Part shown: in pieces, positions 51,589 through 62,669 of the stretch | How positions within the stretch are numbered: the stretch's first letter is position 1 | Layout of the letters: each line of letters begins with the position of its first letter | From: Chlorogloea sp. CCALA 695 | GTDB taxonomy: Bacteria; Cyanobacteriota; Cyanobacteriia; Cyanobacteriales; Chroococcidiopsidaceae | Reading direction: 5' to 3' | Assembly (NCBI RefSeq): GCF_003003885.1 | Contig: NZ_PVWN01000024.1 | Coordinates: 1 to 64,000, forward strand | DNA length: 64,000 bases | Made by a program: the position numbers and the translations under genes | The notes under the pieces: model-generated | The model's input: the letters and a program-made list of their open reading frames with translations, nothing else | What the model was told of the DNA's origin: nothing | The model's database searches: none

Positions 51589-52652
51589 ATGCCTGCTCCC
51601 ATCCGGATAGTTTTAACAGAGGAAGAAGACCGTACATTATTGGAATTGCGAGTAGCTACCAGTGTGCCACAGAGGACAAGAGATCGCGCCCATATGTTGC
51701 GCCTAAACGCGCAGGGGTGGAATACGCCTGCAATTGCAGAAATTTTTGAGTGTCATGAGCATACCGTAAGAGCCACAATTCGGCGCTGGCAAGCAGATGG
51801 GTTAAGTGGTTTGTGGGAAGCGCCAGGGGGCGGAGCAAAGTGTAAATGGTCAGAAACCGACTTACAATACCTAGAGCAGTGTTTGGAGAAAGAAGGGCGC
51901 ACATATAACAGTCTCCAACTAGCGCACAAGTTATCCCAGGAGCGACAGGTAAAATTAAGTCCTGACCGCTTGCGACAAAAGTTGCAAAAAAGGGCAATAA
52001 GTGGAAACGCACACGGCACAGTCATCGAGCCAAGCAAAATCCTGAGTACAAACTACTCAAACAAGCGCAGTTAGATGCGCTTCTGTCAGGTGGAACAATT
52101 AGGCGGTGTTGAACTGATGTATCTTGACGAGTCCGGTTGTTGCCTCTGGAGTCCAGTCAGTTACAGTTATAGCCGCAAAGGCGAACAAAAGCGAACCCTT
52201 GCAGACTGACCGACGTAACGGACGTATCAGCATTTTAGGTTTATGGCAACCAGATAAAAGCTTTAAGTATGCCTTAGCTTGTGGGAGTTTCAAAGTAAGA
52301 AAGTTACATCAAATTCATTGATTGGATTGCAGAACTGGCTCTTGAAACTTTTAGAACCACCGGACGGATGACCGTAATCGTACAAGATAATGGTTCACTA
52401 CATAAAAGCAACAAAACTTGCCAACAGTGGCAACGCTGGCAAGCACAGGGTTTGTTTCTGTTTTTCCTGTCTCCTTATTGCTCCGAAATGAATCGAATTG
52501 AAGAACAATGGCATCAACTCAAAACTCACGAAATTGTCGGGCGGATGTTTGAGGATGAATATGATTTAGCCCTTGCCATCATGGATGGAATGGAAGCTCG
52601 GAGTGTTAAAGGTGGTTATACACTGGAACGTTTTAAGTTTAATTCCGCCTGA
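51589..52652 (+). pseudogene. IS630-family transposase pseudogene
   Basis: The N-terminal HTH part (MPAPIRIVLTEEEDRTLLEL ... HTVRATIRRWQADGLSGLWE) is in one frame and ends at 52074. The DDE domain continues in other frames: VEQLGGVELMYLDESGCCLW (first Asp), NGRISILGLWQPDKSFKYAL, MTVIVQDNGSLHKSNKTCQQ (second Asp) and FFLSPYCSEMNRIEEQWHQL (Glu), ending at 52652. At least three frameshifts break it. The ends carry weak inverted repeats (GTGTTTTCTGTACTGAG near 51559 and CTACTTAAACAC near 52653). Confidence 0.85.
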
Positions 52653-53189: not shown

Positions 53190-53394
53190 ATTCAGAGAAC
53201 ATACTGCACCGCTTACCCTAAAACTTTTAAGCAAAAGTTACGTCTGTCAAAAGAATGAGATAAGTTGTGAATATCAAAGTAGCAAGAGCGGATGCGAATT
53301 CATCCGCAAACCCCCAATGAGGGAGTTATCGATAACCCTACATTCTTCGTCCCCCAAGGGCAAAATTGAATCAGGATTTCCCGCCACAATTCGA

Positions 53395-54999
53395 CTATAG
53401 CTCACCACTTGCCACCATTTGAATAATGCGAGGAATTCCCGGATCGAAACCTCCCATATCCCAAGACAAAGGATCGGTTGGATCTACCAAGGTTAATTGG
53501 TAAGGTGCAAGAGTGACATACACCGCTTTGATATCTGGGTTAATCTTCTTACGGTACTGCGCTAAAGCTTCCGAGGGGTGCTTATTTCCTGCCCAACTTT
53601 CTGAATCTGTCCAAAAGCAAATTACATCGGCTTTGAACTTATTTTTAATCATCCAGTCGTAAGCAATAGAAGCATCTGTTCCACCGAAGTTTTGATTAGT
53701 AGACTTTTTCAACGCCGAACCAAACGTATCTTTGGCGGTAATTCCCAAGTAACGAAAGTCGTTAGCAAAACCACGAATTTCGTAGTTTTCCTCAGCTTTA
53801 GCCGTTACTAAAGCCATCGCTGTAGCAATCTCGCAGCAACTCAAACCGACGGAATCTACTACCCCCGAAGACATCGAACCCGAAACATCTACAGCGTGCA
53901 TAAACACTTTACCAGTAGGTTCTACAACCTCAAAAGACATTTCTAACGCCTTTTCTAAAATGTCTACAATCCGAGCTACAGGTTGCCAAGTTTTTTGACT
54001 GCGTCCAAGTTTTCCCCCAGACTTGTAGGTTTTTAGCGCTTTGAGAACATCAATAGGGTGGATGCGCCCACTTCGCAGACGATCTTTACTATTTAACGTT
54101 GCTTCGAGACGCTTTAAGTTAGCAACTCCATCGGTTCGCAATACGTCTAATTGCGTTAACGAACCCAAGTTACGCAACATTGCACCAATGGGCATTTCTT
54201 CAAACAACAATTGCCATGCAGCTTTATTCATTTTGCCTACAGGTGCAGCCATTTCATGAGTCAAGTGTCCTTGAGAAATAGCTTGCTGAGTTTGTTCGGG
54301 ATTGCGTTTTAGCCATTCATACCACCAAATCTGAGCAAGAGCAGGTGTAGGAATTTCTTTAGGCAATTCTGTCCATCCTTTTACTACCCACTCAAACAAC
54401 TGGCGGTGTTCCTCCGTAGGTGGCTTGACGTGAAATAATCGTAAAGCATCTCGGTGAGTAAAACCTTGACGTTGTTGATACTTCAATAGCTGGTAAGCCA
54501 AGCCTTTGACATCTTCCCGCGATAGCCAAGTTTTGCCCGATTCTCGCACCACTTTACCAAAGCCGCGCATAGATTTTGTATAGCTCAACCATTCGTAGAA
54601 ATGGCTACCAGTACGGATAACTGTAGAAAATATTTCTTGAAAAGCTTGTTTTGCTTCAGAGCTTTCGCCCATAGAGAGCAGCACCAAAGCCAAAATAGGA
54701 GCGCTGTTATTAATTGAGCGACCATCACTAGCATAGACAATTTCTTCAGCTACGCGGGTGGGATTAGACGCGATCGCACTAATCAACACATTAACAAAAT
54801 CATCAGTCAATTCTTTTTTCCCAGCGTAGTAAGTGCTTTTCGCCGTACCAATCAGCAAGCAGCGACGCAACATACCCCAAATGCCAGTATCAAACGCATA
54901 GCCGCCAGAACGTCCTTTAATCATCTCTATTTCCCGTCCAGGAATAGGTTGATTTTGGGGATTTCCCGACTTTTTCTTGGTAAAAAAGTTGTAATTCAT
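53395..54999 (-). CDS. rsr: Ro60-like TROVE-domain RNA-binding protein
   Basis: A 534-residue Ro ortholog, the usual bacterial length. The N-terminal TROVE HEAT-repeat ring spans about residues 15-345 (FDTGIWGMLRRCLLIGTAKS; FYEWLSYTKSMRGFGKVVRE; ALRLFHVKPPTEEHRQLFEW; MPIGAMLRNLGSLTQLDVLR). The C-terminal von Willebrand A domain holds the MIDAS motif DVSGS at 371-375, with the later Thr/Asp in FGGTDAS and CFWTDSESW. Ro proteins bind Y RNAs on the outside of the ring and misfolded or structured RNA ends in the hole; in Deinococcus Rsr feeds RNA to PNPase. Three tRNA-like RNAs with Y-type stems lie just upstream on the same strand, so the RNA partner is encoded in the locus. Confidence 0.93.
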   Translation of the reverse strand: MNYNFFTKKKSGNPQNQPIPGREIEMIKGRSGGYAFDTGIWGMLRRCLLIGTAKSTYYAGKKELTDDFVNVLISAIASNPTRVAEEIVYASDGRSINNSAPILALVLLSMGESSEAKQAFQEIFSTVIRTGSHFYEWLSYTKSMRGFGKVVRESGKTWLSREDVKGLAYQLLKYQQRQGFTHRDALRLFHVKPPTEEHRQLFEWVVKGWTELPKEIPTPALAQIWWYEWLKRNPEQTQQAISQGHLTHEMAAPVGKMNKAAWQLLFEEMPIGAMLRNLGSLTQLDVLRTDGVANLKRLEATLNSKDRLRSGRIHPIDVLKALKTYKSGGKLGRSQKTWQPVARIVDILEKALEMSFEVVEPTGKVFMHAVDVSGSMSSGVVDSVGLSCCEIATAMALVTAKAEENYEIRGFANDFRYLGITAKDTFGSALKKSTNQNFGGTDASIAYDWMIKNKFKADVICFWTDSESWAGNKHPSEALAQYRKKINPDIKAVYVTLAPYQLTLVDPTDPLSWDMGGFDPGIPRIIQMVASGEL

Positions 55000-55036
55000 T
55001 GTGTATTCTCAGCCTTTGCAGGCAAAATATAGTCGG

Positions 55037-55158
55037 CTGGCGGTACGGGAGTTGAACCCGCAATCTTCCGGCTTACAATAACCCTCAATTTTCGGTCTTA
55101 AAAGACAAGTTATTAATCAAGGATTGCCGGATGCTCTGCCAATTGAGCTAACCGCCAG
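55037..55158 (-). ncRNA. tRNA-like Y RNA candidate 1 (proximal to Ro)
   Basis: The minus strand folds as a tRNA without an anticodon arm. The acceptor is 8 perfect pairs (CTGGCGGT with ACCGCCAG), the D arm is AGCTCAATTGGCAGAGC and the T arm is GCGGGTTCAACTCCCGT. A stem TCCGGC/GCCGGA stands where the anticodon stem would be. Its loop carries AATAACTTGTCTTTTAAGAC and then CGAAAATTGAGGGTTATT: AATAAC pairs with GTTATT, GTCTT with AAGAC, and between them CUU faces a bulged C followed by GA, as in the Y RNA Ro site. It ends about 38 bases before the Ro start codon. It is not a decoding tRNA. Confidence 0.75.
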
Positions 55159-55191
55159 ATATAGTTTTATAAAATGTCTTTAAGTGATTTT

Positions 55192-55370
55192 TGGTGTAGC
55201 AGAGCAGGATTTGAACCCGCGACTTCAAGGTTGCGATAATCCTCAATTCTTCGGTCTTTACAGACAAGTTATGAATAGCGAAAAGTCTGTGGGGAAAGTT
55301 TCCTTCCACAGAGCTTTTTAAGAGAAGGCTGTTTTATGCTTGCGCTCTACCAAACTGAGCTACCTGCCAC
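55192..55370 (-). ncRNA. tRNA-like Y RNA candidate 2
   Basis: Acceptor GTGGCAG pairs with CTGCTAC (one G-U) and is followed by an encoded ACCA. The D arm is AGCTCAGTTTGGTAGAGC and the T arm is GCGGGTTCAAATCCTGC. The 179-base RNA has two inserts in the anticodon place. One is a strong hairpin (AAAAGCTCTGTGG... CCACAGACTTTT, minus strand of 55280-55317). The other is the Y-type stem ATAACTTGTCT-GTAA-AGACCGAAG then AATTGAGGATTATC. The latter part, CCGAAG...TGAG...TTATC, also resembles the 5' strand of vertebrate Y1. This is the best match to the Y consensus of the three. Confidence 0.75.
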
Positions 55371-55410
55371 AAGTTTTTGTGAATTTGTCATAGTTATGAT
55401 GTTTGTTTTT

Positions 55411-55539
55411 TGGTGTAGCAGAGCGGGAATTGAACCCGCACCCCCGGCGAATTAAGGTGTTTATTTTTCAACGATAACCCTCGATTCTGCGTCCTTTTCA
55501 GGCAAAAGTTGGCGCTCTACCAATTGAGCTACCCGCCAC
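55411..55539 (-). ncRNA. tRNA-like Y RNA candidate 3 (promoter proximal)
   Basis: Acceptor GTGGCGG pairs with CTGCTAC allowing G-U pairs, followed by ACCA. The D arm is AGCTCAATTGGTAGAGC and the T arm is a perfect GCGGG-TTCAATT-CCCGC. The insert (CAACTTTTGCCTGAAAAGGA then CGCAGAATCGAGGGTTATCG) aligns base by base with the inserts of copies 1 and 2 over about 30 bases, but the bulged-C region is altered, so Ro binding may be weaker. An extra 25-base AT-rich tail (AAAAATAAACACCTTAATTC) precedes the T arm side. The shared acceptor and ACCA with copy 2 point to local duplication. Confidence 0.68.
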
Positions 55540-55621
55540 AAGTAATTAAATCCTCATCCCTAGATATCAATCGTTTCGCCAAAAACACTTGTGATGATTC
55601 GGTGAAACGCTTTGTATTACA

Positions 55622-55650
55622 AATGTAGTATAAATGTTCTTAATTGTCAA
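55622..55650 (-). promoter_or_regulatory. sigma70-type promoter for the Y RNA-Ro locus
   Basis: On the minus strand TTGACA (55650-55645) is followed after 17 bases by TACATT (55627-55622). It lies about 80 bases before tRNA-like RNA 3 and reads through all three RNAs towards the Ro gene. Confidence 0.5.
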
Positions 55651-55788
55651 GAGTTGGGGAAATAATTTTAGGTATTTGGCTTAAAATCGCTACGTAGATT
55701 AAAATTCTGGGTATGAGACAAGAAGTCGCCCTGACTAGGACAATTACTTAGGAAACTTCTCTACCGCAGCGATTGTAGCGACCAAAAC

Positions 55789-57547: not shown

Positions 57548-57856
57548 CTAATAATGATAACGAGCCTGTAGAAAGTCTACTCTATCCTGTTTTACCCGAT
57601 AGATAAGCCTATGTTCTAAATCGATTCGCCGCGACCAAGTATCAGCGTCCAAGTGCTTAAGTGGTTCCGGCTTGCCTATTCCCTCAAATGGATGCTGCAT
57701 CACATCCGTAACTAAAGCAAAAATTTTGTCCGCTTTGTTAGGATTAGTTTTGTACCACCAACCTAAGTCATCCTTGAATTGCGGACTGAAATCCGGAAAT
57801 CTTACAGGTAATGCAGGTGGTGGTGGAAGATCAACCTTCTTCTTTTTCTGCGCCAA
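57548..57856 (-). CDS. yoeB: YoeB-family mRNA interferase toxin
   Basis: A 102-residue RelE-superfamily toxin. The family core is clear: PFEGIGKPEPLKHLDADTWS, RRIDLEHRLIYRV and QARYHY at the C-terminus. These keep the Glu, Arg and His residues YoeB uses to cut mRNA in the ribosomal A site. YoeB is usually about 84 residues; here an N-terminal extension of about 25 residues, lysine- and proline-rich (MAQKKKKVDLPPPPALPVRF), is added. The gene overlaps the antitoxin by 26 bases, in the usual antitoxin-first order. Confidence 0.88.
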   Translation of the reverse strand: MAQKKKKVDLPPPPALPVRFPDFSPQFKDDLGWWYKTNPNKADKIFALVTDVMQHPFEGIGKPEPLKHLDADTWSRRIDLEHRLIYRVKQDRVDFLQARYHY

Positions 57857-58142
57857 TCCCTAACTCCTGTTTTAAGGACGCGATCGCCTGTTCAATGGTT
57901 ACTGGTGCTAAAATTTCCTCATCTCTTGATCTAGACCATTGCAAAGCATTAAGCAGACGCGCAGCATTTTGAGGACTTCGCAAAAGATAAGCCGTCTCTC
58001 TTAGACTTGTAAGCTCATCTTCGGCAATCAATGCCACATTTGGCTTATTACGACGCTCAATAATAATAATTTCTCGCTCATCCACAACCTGGTCTAAAAG
58101 ATGTGCCAAATTTTCACGGGCTTTAGTATAGGTAGTTTGCAT
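57831..58142 (-). CDS. yefM: YefM/Phd-family antitoxin
   Basis: A 103-residue antitoxin. Its N-terminal Phd/YefM DNA-binding domain starts MQTTYTKARENLAHLLDQVV and contains EREIIIIERRNKPNVALIAE with DELTSLRETAYLLRSPQNAA, all family hallmarks. The C-terminal acidic tail (LKQELGIGAEKEEG) would wrap the toxin. It overlaps the toxin gene by 26 bases. A TGTACA palindrome immediately upstream (58155-58179) is the likely operator. Confidence 0.88.
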   Translation of the reverse strand: MQTTYTKARENLAHLLDQVVDEREIIIIERRNKPNVALIAEDELTSLRETAYLLRSPQNAARLLNALQWSRSRDEEILAPVTIEQAIASLKQELGIGAEKEEG

Positions 58143-60599: not shown

Positions 60600-62669
60600 A
60601 TGAGTGCTAAAATTGCGCCGACAAATTTTATAAATGACTTAGATCGAGTATCTCAATCGCGTTTGCAGGTATCGCAAAGCCTTTATGCAATCGCCCAAAC
60701 TCTAGAAAAAGCAGAATTAGAGGGCGAAAAACAATCGGGAAAGCTAGAATTATCTAGAGATATAGAAGATATAGCTAAAGCAAGTATTGCCTTGCGTAAT
60801 GGGGTTTTTAGGCTGTTAGTATTGGGCGATATGAAGCGAGGTAAAAGTACATTTTTAAATGCTTTAATTGGCGAAAATTTATTACCTAGTGATGTTAATC
60901 CTTGTACGGCAATATTAACGATTTTGCGGTACGGGTTAGAAAAAAAAGTAACGGTTCACTTTAATAATGGTACTAGCCCAGAAAACTTAGATTTTAAAAC
61001 TTTTAAGCAGCGCTATACTATTGATGGGTCAGAAGCAAAAGAACTAGAACAACAAAAAAAACTTGCTTTTCCTGAAGTTAGTCATGCGGTAGTTGAGTAT
61101 CCTTTATCATTACTAGAAAAAGGCGTAGAAATTATTGATAGTCCTGGCTTAAATGATACAGAAGCCCGAAACGAATTATCTTTAGGTTACGTTAATAATT
61201 GCCATGCTATTTTGTTTGTAATGCGTGCTTCTCAGCCTTGTACGCTTGGAGAACGCCGTTATTTAGAAAACTATATCAAAAGTCGAGGTTTAACAGTTTT
61301 CTTTTTAATTAATGCTTGGGATCAAGTAAAAGAAAGCTTAATCGATCCTGACGATAAGGAAGAATTAGCGGAATCTGAAGAAAAATTACGCCGAGTTTTC
61401 AAAGCAAACTTAGCTGAATATTGCCAAATAGACGGATACGATGTTTATGACGAGCGAGTGTTTGAAGTTTCTTCAATTCAGGCATTACGGCGACGATTAA
61501 AAAATCCTGATGCTTCCTTAGAAGGTACTGGATTTACTGAATTTATGAGTGCTATTAGCACTTTTTTAACTAAAGAAAGAGCAGTTTCGGAACTCAGACA
61601 AGCAAGAACTTTAGCACGGCTTGCTTACCAACACGTCAACGAAGCAATCGAACGCCGCGTACCTTTGTTAGAACAAGATATTGAGGAGTTAAAACGGCGG
61701 ATTGATTCGGTAGAACCAGAATTTGATAAGTTGACAGATATTAGCAACCAATTTCAAACCGAAATTAGAACAGTTAAGCAACAAAAAGCACGAGAAGTTG
61801 CTGATGCTTTTCGCACTTATGTTCTCAATTTAGGCGATACTTTTGAGTCAGACTTTCTGCGCTATCAGCCCGAATTGAAATTTATGGACTTTTTAGATAG
61901 AGGTAAACGAGAAGCTTTTGAAATGGCGCTTAAACAGGCTTTTGAAAAATATCTTCATGACAAGTTAGCAGCATTTAGCGTTATTGGCGAACAACAAATG
62001 AATGCGGCTTTTGGGCAATTATCGCAAAGTGCGGCTCATTATGGCGCTTCTTACAGCAAAGTTACCGACAAAATTACCGAAAAACTTACTGGGCAAAAAG
62101 TTCAAATAGGTAGCGCTGCAACAGAAGATAATTCCCCAAGTTGGGCAAAATGGGCAATGGGTTTAATTTCCCTAGCTTCTGGTAATGTAGCAGGAGTCGC
62201 CCTTGCTGGGGTAGGTATGGATTGGAAAAATATCATGCTCAATTTAGTTGCGGTAATTGGGATTGGTGGTGCGATCGCAACTTTTTCGGGAATTATTTTA
62301 GGCCCAATTAGTTTAGCACTTCTGGCTTTGGGAATTGGAGCTATGCAAGCCGATAGCGCTCGTCAGCAATTGGTTAAAGCCACAAAAAAAGAGTTAATCA
62401 AATACTTGCCCCAAGTAGCACAAGAGCAATGGCAACCCGTTTATGATGCCGTGCAAGAGTGTTTTGAAGCTTACGAAACAGAAGTGAATGCAAGAATCAA
62501 TGATGATATTAAAGCGCGCAAGTCTGAGTTAGAAAACTTGAGCGTTCAAAAAGCATCCCACGAAATTGATCGCGTTGCAGAGTTAGCACGGTTGAGAATG
62601 TTGGAAAATAACATCTCTGACGAAGTTAAGAGCGTTGAGAGCGCTTATCAACATCTTTTGTCAGCCTAA
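60600..62669 (+). CDS. bacterial dynamin-like GTPase (first of pair)
   Basis: A 689-residue dynamin-like protein. Start at ATG 60600 with AGGAAAG upstream. GTPase motifs: G1 GDMKRGKST (76-84), a G2 Thr in PCTAIL, G3 DSPGLND and G4 NAWD. A helical stalk of about 300 residues follows (ERRVPLLEQDIEELKRRIDS; KQQKAREVADAFRTYVLNLG). A hydrophobic paddle near residues 515-585 (LISLASGNVAGVALAGVG, NLVAVIGIGGAIATF, GIILGPISLALLALGIG) should insert in membrane. Such proteins reshape or fuse membranes; cyanobacterial BDLP is a well-known homologue. The second dynamin gene starts 6 bases after its stop. Confidence 0.9.
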   Translation: MSAKIAPTNFINDLDRVSQSRLQVSQSLYAIAQTLEKAELEGEKQSGKLELSRDIEDIAKASIALRNGVFRLLVLGDMKRGKSTFLNALIGENLLPSDVNPCTAILTILRYGLEKKVTVHFNNGTSPENLDFKTFKQRYTIDGSEAKELEQQKKLAFPEVSHAVVEYPLSLLEKGVEIIDSPGLNDTEARNELSLGYVNNCHAILFVMRASQPCTLGERRYLENYIKSRGLTVFFLINAWDQVKESLIDPDDKEELAESEEKLRRVFKANLAEYCQIDGYDVYDERVFEVSSIQALRRRLKNPDASLEGTGFTEFMSAISTFLTKERAVSELRQARTLARLAYQHVNEAIERRVPLLEQDIEELKRRIDSVEPEFDKLTDISNQFQTEIRTVKQQKAREVADAFRTYVLNLGDTFESDFLRYQPELKFMDFLDRGKREAFEMALKQAFEKYLHDKLAAFSVIGEQQMNAAFGQLSQSAAHYGASYSKVTDKITEKLTGQKVQIGSAATEDNSPSWAKWAMGLISLASGNVAGVALAGVGMDWKNIMLNLVAVIGIGGAIATFSGIILGPISLALLALGIGAMQADSARQQLVKATKKELIKYLPQVAQEQWQPVYDAVQECFEAYETEVNARINDDIKARKSELENLSVQKASHEIDRVAELARLRMLENNISDEVKSVESAYQHLLSA

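Follow-up and report, generated by a model that had tools for sequence, protein, structure and literature searches.

In human Y RNAs, a bulged C is followed by GA and faced by CUU on the opposite strand. tmRNA (RF00023) has a tRNA-like body in which a functional module replaces the anticodon region, and the RNAs described here resemble it as tRNA-like chimeras but differ in being linked to Ro60. The Ro-binding stem of vertebrate Y RNAs consists of a helix and a bulged C that faces a bulge of three bases (PMC4726728, excerpt), and the bulged C is conserved in bacterial Y RNAs (PMC4030889, excerpt). Our RNAs share with YrlA (Salmonella YrlA, PDB 6CU1) the encoding together with Ro60/Rsr, the tRNA-like D, T, and acceptor parts, and a Y stem with a bulged C; it is already known that YrlA, as a circular permutation, can be superposed on tRNA (PMC11472068, excerpt). 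Unlike YrlA, they would, judging from their pairing, end in the acceptor and have a Y stem closed by a loop; their CCA may be encoded, and many relatives have an anticodon arm. From animal Y RNAs (RF00019), with which they share the helix, the bulged C, and the three-base bulge opposite (PMC4726728, excerpt), they are set apart by permuted ends and the fusion to a tRNA, and from tRNAs by an anticodon arm that is interrupted by the Y arm and by a triplet that varies among orthologues. In RYPER, the Rsr-Y RNA-PNPase complex of Deinococcus, the Y RNA is bound by Ro60 while another part of it contacts PNPase (PMC8394870, excerpt); our RNAs differ from it in topology.

None of the literature titles that we went through dealt with cyanobacterial Y RNAs or with Y RNA anticodon loops, the primary papers on bacterial Y RNAs being outside the scope of that search. 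The 2014 survey of bacterial Y RNAs by Chen et al. may cover cyanobacteria as well. Here, we argue from comparative sequence analysis that three RNAs encoded beside a cyanobacterial Ro60 gene are probably the Y RNAs of this bacterium's Ro60, with the ends of a tRNA and a Ro60-docking arm set into the anticodon arm.

The Ro60 locus and its RNA array

The window, i.e., the whole stretch of DNA that we analyzed, comprises 64,000 nucleotides of Chlorogloea sp. CCALA 695 (contig NZ_PVWN01000024.1) and belongs to a genome of 5.2 Mb. On its minus strand, a Ro60/Rsr gene (53395 to 54999) encodes a protein of 534 aa with TROVE and vWA_Ro60 domains, which was identified by Pfam (vWA_Ro60 127 bits, TROVE 56.8 bits) and by relatives of solved structure, namely D. 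radiodurans Rsr (2nvo, E 1.7e-70), human RO60 (9nen, E 5.4e-69), and the 60-kDa SS-A/Ro protein (1yvp). Its closest named record among the matches listed comes from an uncultured Aliterella sp. (98% identity). The protein keeps the histidine that aligns with human H187 (RLFHVKP; counted on the alignment), a residue that contacts Y RNA (PMC4030889, excerpt).

Along the minus strand in the direction of transcription, the order is RNA A (55411 to 55539), RNA B (55192 to 55370), RNA C (55037 to 55158), and then the Ro60 gene. In a local scan with the Rfam tRNA model (RF00005; gathering score 29), copy C reached 50.3, copy A 39.0, and copy B 35.4 bits, and their scores with model R1 were 94, 57.5 to 57.8, and 58.7 bits, respectively; without filters, the last of these is divided between two matches of 53.1 and 9.4 bits. 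The initial annotation had proposed three minus-strand tRNA-like RNAs 5' of a Ro60 gene, two of them with an encoded ACCA, and this observation is confirmed: Copies A and B carry CACCA, and the Ro60-proximal copy C has no encoded CCA. A promoter-like site (TTGACA-17-TACATT, minus strand, 55622 to 55650), assigned by consensus match only, lies 5' of copy A. The surroundings of the Ro60 locus include a toxin-antitoxin pair, YoeB and Phd/YefM (57548 to 58142, minus strand), a bacterial dynamin-like protein (60600 to 62669, plus strand), and a split transposase whose parts match HTH and DDE_3 (51589 to 52652, plus strand), all recognized by Pfam; we take the transposase to be IS630-like.

The three copies are built differently. 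Copy A, of type II, consists in order of an acceptor with a G-1:C73 pair, D arm, H2 hairpin, H1, T arm, and CACCA, with the H1 strand CCUUAAUUC placed after GGUUAUCG. Copy B, of type I, has an acceptor, a D arm, a CAAG/CUUG anticodon-stem remnant (by eye), the Y arm, a T arm, and CACCA; within its Y arm region, at about 55265 to 55335 (minus strand), there is an extra G+C-rich hairpin that is also found in a close relative (L093). In copy C, likewise of type I, the Y arm is set in at the 5' edge of the anticodon loop. Its helix H1 is formed by AAUCCUUGAUU (5' strand, 55115 to 55125) and AAUUGAGGGUU (3' strand, 55080 to 55090) according to fold and family alignment, and fold and sequence place the terminal helix H2 (GUCU/AGAC) with its loop at 55095 to 55106. 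The bulged C lies at 55094, the GA at 55092 to 55093, and the CUU at 55107 to 55109. The minimum-energy fold of copy C is the family structure, including the conserved H1 (z -3.91). Copy A by itself is no more stable than its shuffles (z -0.74; 43 of 200 shuffles were as good); the evidence for these RNAs is comparative.

The stretch that replaces the anticodon loop measures 54 nt in C, 56 nt in A, and 109 nt in B, and because of it ARAGORN without introns is blind to the three RNAs and found no tRNA at their positions; with introns allowed, it made low-quality calls at the locus. The faster whole-window Rfam scan listed only copy A as tRNA, and at gathering score Rfam 15 yielded no family besides tRNA in the window. 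The tmRNA_permuted model matched weakly (17.5 bits; gathering score 47), and animal Y RNA (RF00019) gave no match up to E 10 in 54900 to 55780; a relative with permuted ends would not necessarily match. No Rfam intron family matched the inserts of 54 to 109 nt, and a tRNA with a group I intron was rejected on this ground. The Rfam YrlA model (RF02553) did not reach its gathering score of 69 bits with the window RNAs, but this score is insensitive here, since YrlA-like matches near Ro60 in Nonomuraea and in phages (28.8 to 51 bits) also remain below it. The YrlA matches that do occur in the window span two copies each (31.3 bits for A and B, 26.6 bits for B and C), which gave a first hint that the RNAs could be YrlA with the chain opened elsewhere.

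Association with Ro60 and conservation of the Y arm

We sampled 388 genomes of the class, 65 of them with Ro60. An R1 match of 60 bits or more was found in 60 of the 65 Ro60-positive genomes and in 0 of the 323 Ro60-negative ones; this is a count of co-occurrence per genome rather than of adjacency, made on nine candidates per genome under strict filters. The cut-off was set at 60 bits; beneath it, ordinary 72-nt tRNAs come up. In one genome (G368) the best match lies on a different contig from Ro60, and in another (G083) the best match is off the Ro60 contig and the second one on it. Three of the five Ro60-positive misses (L054, L060, and L069) have weaker copies of more than 100 nt (49 to 53 bits) 5' of Ro60, another (G116) has a Ro60 fragment only, near a contig end, and in the fifth (G336) Ro60 is only 30% identical. 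Around the Ro60 gene of this last genome (L033, Nostocales) there are many ordinary tRNA-like R1 matches in what looks like a phage or mobile tRNA-rich region.

At the level of loci, we compared 60 regions, taken from 58 of the remaining 64 Ro60-positive genomes, and the best 80 of 149 named Ro60 loci, two sets that overlap in organisms. At least one copy was present in 78 of these best 80 named loci, in 74 by the arm finder and in four more (L148, L150, L155, and L165) by R1; in L138 and L163, neither the arm finder nor R1 found a copy. Two finders were employed: The first required D and T arms and a GGUUAU-like core and left acceptor pairing free, while the second required acceptor, D, and T arms and left the core free. 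The first finder gave 174 units in 79 distinct loci, counted after removal of loci with identical acceptor sets, with one copy in 24 loci, two in 28, three in 20, four in 6, and ten in 1. The GGUUAU-like core was present in 242 of 252 units of the second finder, and GGUUAUCG was exact in 206 of 228 middle-length units that had been found without requiring it. We dropped the ten units without the core, two of which (in L039) look like true variants, as well as units with at least 160 nt between the arms (242 to 224) and identical sequences (leaving 212). Three R1 matches lie 5' of Ro60 on plasmid pAQ7 of Picosynechococcus PCC 7002, two genomes (G077 and G242) have two Ro60 genes each with these RNAs near both, and a search of viral contigs with a strict consensus pattern gave 0 matches.

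The structure was analyzed on an alignment of 38 representatives (A1) that were kept of 134 after removing copies more than 90% alike. Its rows had been picked by acceptor, D, T, and 31-39 pairing and by T-loop and GGUUAU-like anchors, and percentages for the acceptor, D, T, and upper anticodon pairs are therefore inflated by partial selection. On A1, the full structure has 97.1% of its cells paired, both partners are substituted in 23 of 34 pairs, and its covariation score is 0.459 compared to 0.204 +/- 0.009 for shuffled and at most 0.112 for slid controls. The parts that were not selected for pairing are nearly as well paired, i.e., the lower anticodon stem in 95.8%, H1 in 93.9%, and H2 in 95.4% of cells, with one H1 pair broken in 10 of 38 rows. 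RNAalifold run unguided on A1 predicted the acceptor, D, and T arms, most of both Y-arm helices, and the upper anticodon stem; the lower anticodon stem was absent from this prediction.

The conserved H1 helix is UCCUUnAUUC paired with GAAUUGAGGG, and the AUAAC/GUUAU inner helix that had been proposed instead is absent from the consensus. The bulged C with GA facing CUU, which had been proposed as a Ro-binding signature, is recovered: The C is present in 38 of 38 rows of A1, and the CUU opposite in 35, 38, and 37 of 38 by position. Similarly, the GTCT..AAGACCGAA..TTGAGG block that had been described as conserved is found in copies B and C. The Ro-binding features of vertebrate Y RNAs (bulged C, three-base bulge opposite, and flanking helices) are all present, and the alignment supports the presence of a tRNA body and a putative Ro-binding arm made of two helices with an invariant bulged C and CUU opposite.

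Taken together, the Ro60 association and the Y-arm covariation, both of which had been named as expectations of the initial annotation, support its proposal that cyanobacteria have a family of Ro60-linked Y RNAs whose ends are tRNA-like and whose Ro-binding stem is permuted. Remnants of decaying tRNAs, or debris of mobile elements, that came to lie beside Ro60 by chance would fit the varying copy number and the split transposase nearby, but this explanation is contradicted by the covariation, by the 60 of 65 versus 0 of 323 association, and by the copies in 78 of the best 80 named loci, so that we consider it exceedingly improbable.

Chain ends and permuted topologies

Where these RNAs begin and end can be judged from their acceptor strands. 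Within copies, 7 of 7 acceptor pairs form in 152 of 174 units, compared to 19 of 95 cases when a 3' acceptor strand is matched with the 5' strand of the next copy (random about 27%); twelve units with at most three within-copy pairs are probably mis-anchored. As a separate observation, some anticodon loops (GGGUUCG) can be taken for T loops. An eighth acceptor pair, between base -1 and base 73, is found in 153 of 174 units. A CCA-like 3' end is encoded in 63 of 95 non-last copies and in 6 of 79 last copies; for comparison, 12 of the 38 ordinary tRNAs of the window genome have an encoded CCA. Because the strands pair within and not across copies, the mature ends most likely lie in the acceptor as in tRNA, which agrees with the permuted topology that had been suggested from the window and would make these RNAs a circular permutation of YrlA. 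Recognition by tRNA enzymes would predict both the encoded CCA and the 8-bp acceptor.

This evidence also bears on whether the array is processed like ordinary YrlA, with cuts in the Y-arm loops that join the T half of one copy to the D half of the next. The Rfam YrlA matches that bridge neighboring copies speak for such processing, as do overlapping YrlA-type and tRNA-type readings in a Nonomuraea array (see below). We nevertheless regard it as very unlikely given the acceptor pairing within rather than across copies, the 24 of 79 loci with a single copy (by the first finder), and the CCA-like ends of non-last copies. Plain YrlA was rejected as an identification on the basis of the sub-gathering Rfam scores and the within-copy acceptor pairing.

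Alternatively, the array could mainly be a 5' leader that regulates Ro60 via tRNA processing, with RNAs that have no job of their own. In the 3 kb 5' of the best 80 of 149 named loci, all 165 units have the same orientation as Ro60, and the last copy mostly lacks an encoded CCA, both of which a leader would explain. The nearly invariant bulged-C element and the covarying helices argue against a leader without functional RNAs, and so do R1 matches 3' of Ro60, and we regard this explanation as very improbable.

In the window, such a 3' match (53286 to 53410) marks a fourth, divergent RNA directly after the Ro60 stop codon (53279 to 53387 by eye, minus strand; R1 26.3 bits, E 0.024 for the whole genome and 1.3e-5 in a local scan). 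By eye, its ends pair like an acceptor over 9 bp, three of them G-U, and it has a Y arm, no D arm, and a different hairpin where the T arm would be. Further R1 matches 3' of Ro60 were found in L105, L126, L127, L139, and L151, and the one in L105 (6660 to 6771) is a downstream relative with a T arm (49.0 bits).

In type II RNAs, including copy A of the window, the H1 strand CCUUnAUUC stands 3' of GGUUAUCG and the anticodon hairpin. As a 12-copy alignment misregistered the second H1 strand in some rows (by eye), we used duplex energies for this helix: Across 21 distinct copies, the mean was -10.2 kcal/mol for a copy's own strands, -4.7 kcal/mol for shuffled, and -6.9 kcal/mol for swapped ones.

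Outside cyanobacteria, we sampled six Ro60 loci (L211 to L216). The Ro60 of Nonomuraea gerenzanensis is 29% identical, and in its array a match of the YrlA type (51 bits) and one of the tRNA type (58.5 bits) overlap; by eye, both readings contain GGUUAUC and a loop with U33 (CUGAUAA and CUCAGGA). The two readings share one D arm (L213, 2350 to 2960). It is possible that this array is a snapshot of permuted forms in the course of interconversion. The other five loci had no R1 match of more than 100 nt above 32 bits, and four of them contain weak YrlA matches.

The anticodon hairpin and possible roles

In many relatives, the anticodon stem holds the Y arm in its 5' strand, and GGUUAU leads into a hairpin whose loop has 7 nt. 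Under a loose rule, this hairpin is present in 156 of 212 distinct copies (type I, 137 of 189; type II, 19 of 23 under a weak version that asks for one closing pair, with U33 in 19 of 19), so that 52 of 189 type I copies lack it. Under a stricter rule, which itself requires U33 and purine 37, it is present in 111 of 165 units, with at least one copy in 65 of 74 named loci with units, and missing in 54. The lack of an anticodon arm that the initial annotation had described for the window RNAs is thus correct for copies A and B, which have no proper hairpin, but not for copy C, where an intact 6-bp anticodon stem (UCCGGC/GCCGGA) adjoins a 7-nt loop remnant that is bulged in the minimum-energy fold (AUUGUAA, 55073 to 55079, minus strand), and it does not extend to the 65 of 74 named loci. 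Since the loop is missing in A, B, and other copies, it would be dispensable for being a Y RNA.

Where the loop is present, it looks like that of a tRNA. Among the 137 type I hairpin copies, which were chosen by pairing with the loop letters free, U33 is found in 136 and purine 37 in 135, while positions 34 to 36 spread over four bases. Without any selection on the arm, a 3-bp stem forms at the expected offset in 88 of 172 units, compared to 0 to 39 units at nine other offsets (39 at +2), and U33 and purine 37 are each present in 87 of these 88. Base 37 follows base 36, with G37 in 13 of 16 distinct loops with G36 and in 3 of 29 others (p 3e-6, uncorrected for kinship). Ten distinct loops, which account for 53 of 156 copies, are identical to the loop of a real tRNA with the same anticodon in the window genome, and the loop flanks match real tRNA loops in 66 of 102 cases compared to 49.4 after shuffling (1 of 2000 shuffles was as high).

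The triplet itself changes fast. In an orthologous group of 31 Ro60-adjacent copies, mostly from Nostocales, the mean pairwise difference is 0.467 at positions 34 to 36 and 0.066 elsewhere, i.e., the triplet is about 7 times more variable than the rest; of the 116 other columns, 8 equal or exceed the least variable triplet column in variability. The group contains ten different loops, with U33 in 30 and purine 37 in 31 of the 31 copies. A variable triplet between a kept U33 and purine 37 indicates that the loop is maintained while its triplet is free or diversifying, and the variability may reflect relaxed constraint.

We weighed whether these RNAs could be tRNAs that use their anticodon for decoding, perhaps with a small spliced insert, the Y arm being either an intron or an arm that is tolerated. 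The loops follow tRNA rules including the 36/37 coupling, excision of the insert from hairpin copies leaves a 5-bp anticodon stem (read from A1), and Ile-GAT and Leu-TAA are missing among the 38 ordinary tRNAs found. These 38 tRNAs already supply 36 anticodons, however, so that the RNAs are probably not needed for decoding. Moreover, the triplet changes among near-identical bodies, and AGG, which is absent from the 36 tRNA anticodons of the window genome, is the commonest triplet under the 3-bp rule without arm selection (18 of 88). GGUUAUCG, exact in more than nine tenths of the middle-length units, extends into the anticodon stem, unlike a tRNA-specific stem, and the window inserts are without an Rfam intron match. 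A decoding role thus appears very unlikely, and a plain or intron-bearing tRNA was rejected on the ARAGORN results, the ordinary tRNA set, and the variable triplet. Instead, a maintained anticodon loop with a fast-changing triplet suggests imitation or baiting of tRNA-handling enzymes rather than translation.

The best reading, from sequence comparison alone, is that these RNAs are Ro60-bound tRNA mimics. Each would be a tRNA with normal termini (8-bp acceptor, often CCA) and a Ro60-docking arm composed of H1, the CUU opposite bulged C-G-A, and H2; compared to YrlA, the Y stem, which is open there, would be closed by a loop, and the acceptor, which is closed there, would be open. The array would be transcribed ahead of Ro60 and the RNAs excised by tRNA-processing enzymes. 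The Y arm would then dock the RNA on the Ro60 rim, so that the tRNA-shaped body is held beside the Ro60 channel and possibly PNPase too, as in RYPER. In many relatives, this body would present a natural-looking anticodon loop with a fast-changing triplet, a mimicry that may be aimed at enzymes that recognize or cleave anticodons.

Baiting or sensing of anticodon-directed enzymes is, in our view, the most likely reason for the changing triplets, though as an explanation it is tentative; next in rank comes a tRNA mimicry of a general kind, in which the triplet is neutral and the mimicry would serve processing, stability, or docking to PNPase. Extended to the whole family, the idea is that the Ro60 proteins of cyanobacteria and of at least one actinobacterium carry arrays of tRNA decoys, anchored by the arm in the anticodon stem, whose triplets diversify fast under a kept U33, purine 37, and 36/37 rule. 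Such decoys would lure or sense enzymes that cleave or hold anticodon loops, such as toxins or phage-triggered anticodon nucleases, which we put forward as speculation. Hughes et al. considered that the tRNA-like domain of YrlA possibly inhibits an anticodon nuclease of which YrlA is not a substrate (PMC7790460, excerpt). In Chlorogloeopsis fritschii PCC 9212, a TROVE gene is strongly upregulated after erythromycin (PMC6424891, excerpt) and goes up together with RtcB in coculture (PMC11423583, excerpt); one of our RNAs is present in C. fritschii PCC 6912 (L131).

These RNAs bear on why bacterial Y RNAs mimic tRNA, and real anticodon loops beside a Ro60-binding arm make the idea of anticodon nuclease inhibition directly testable. 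The natural permutations (tRNA-type, YrlA-type, and type II) suggest a possible route from tandem copies to YrlA. If the decoy reading is true, Ro60 and its partners in RNA repair and decay would be engaged when tRNAs are attacked.
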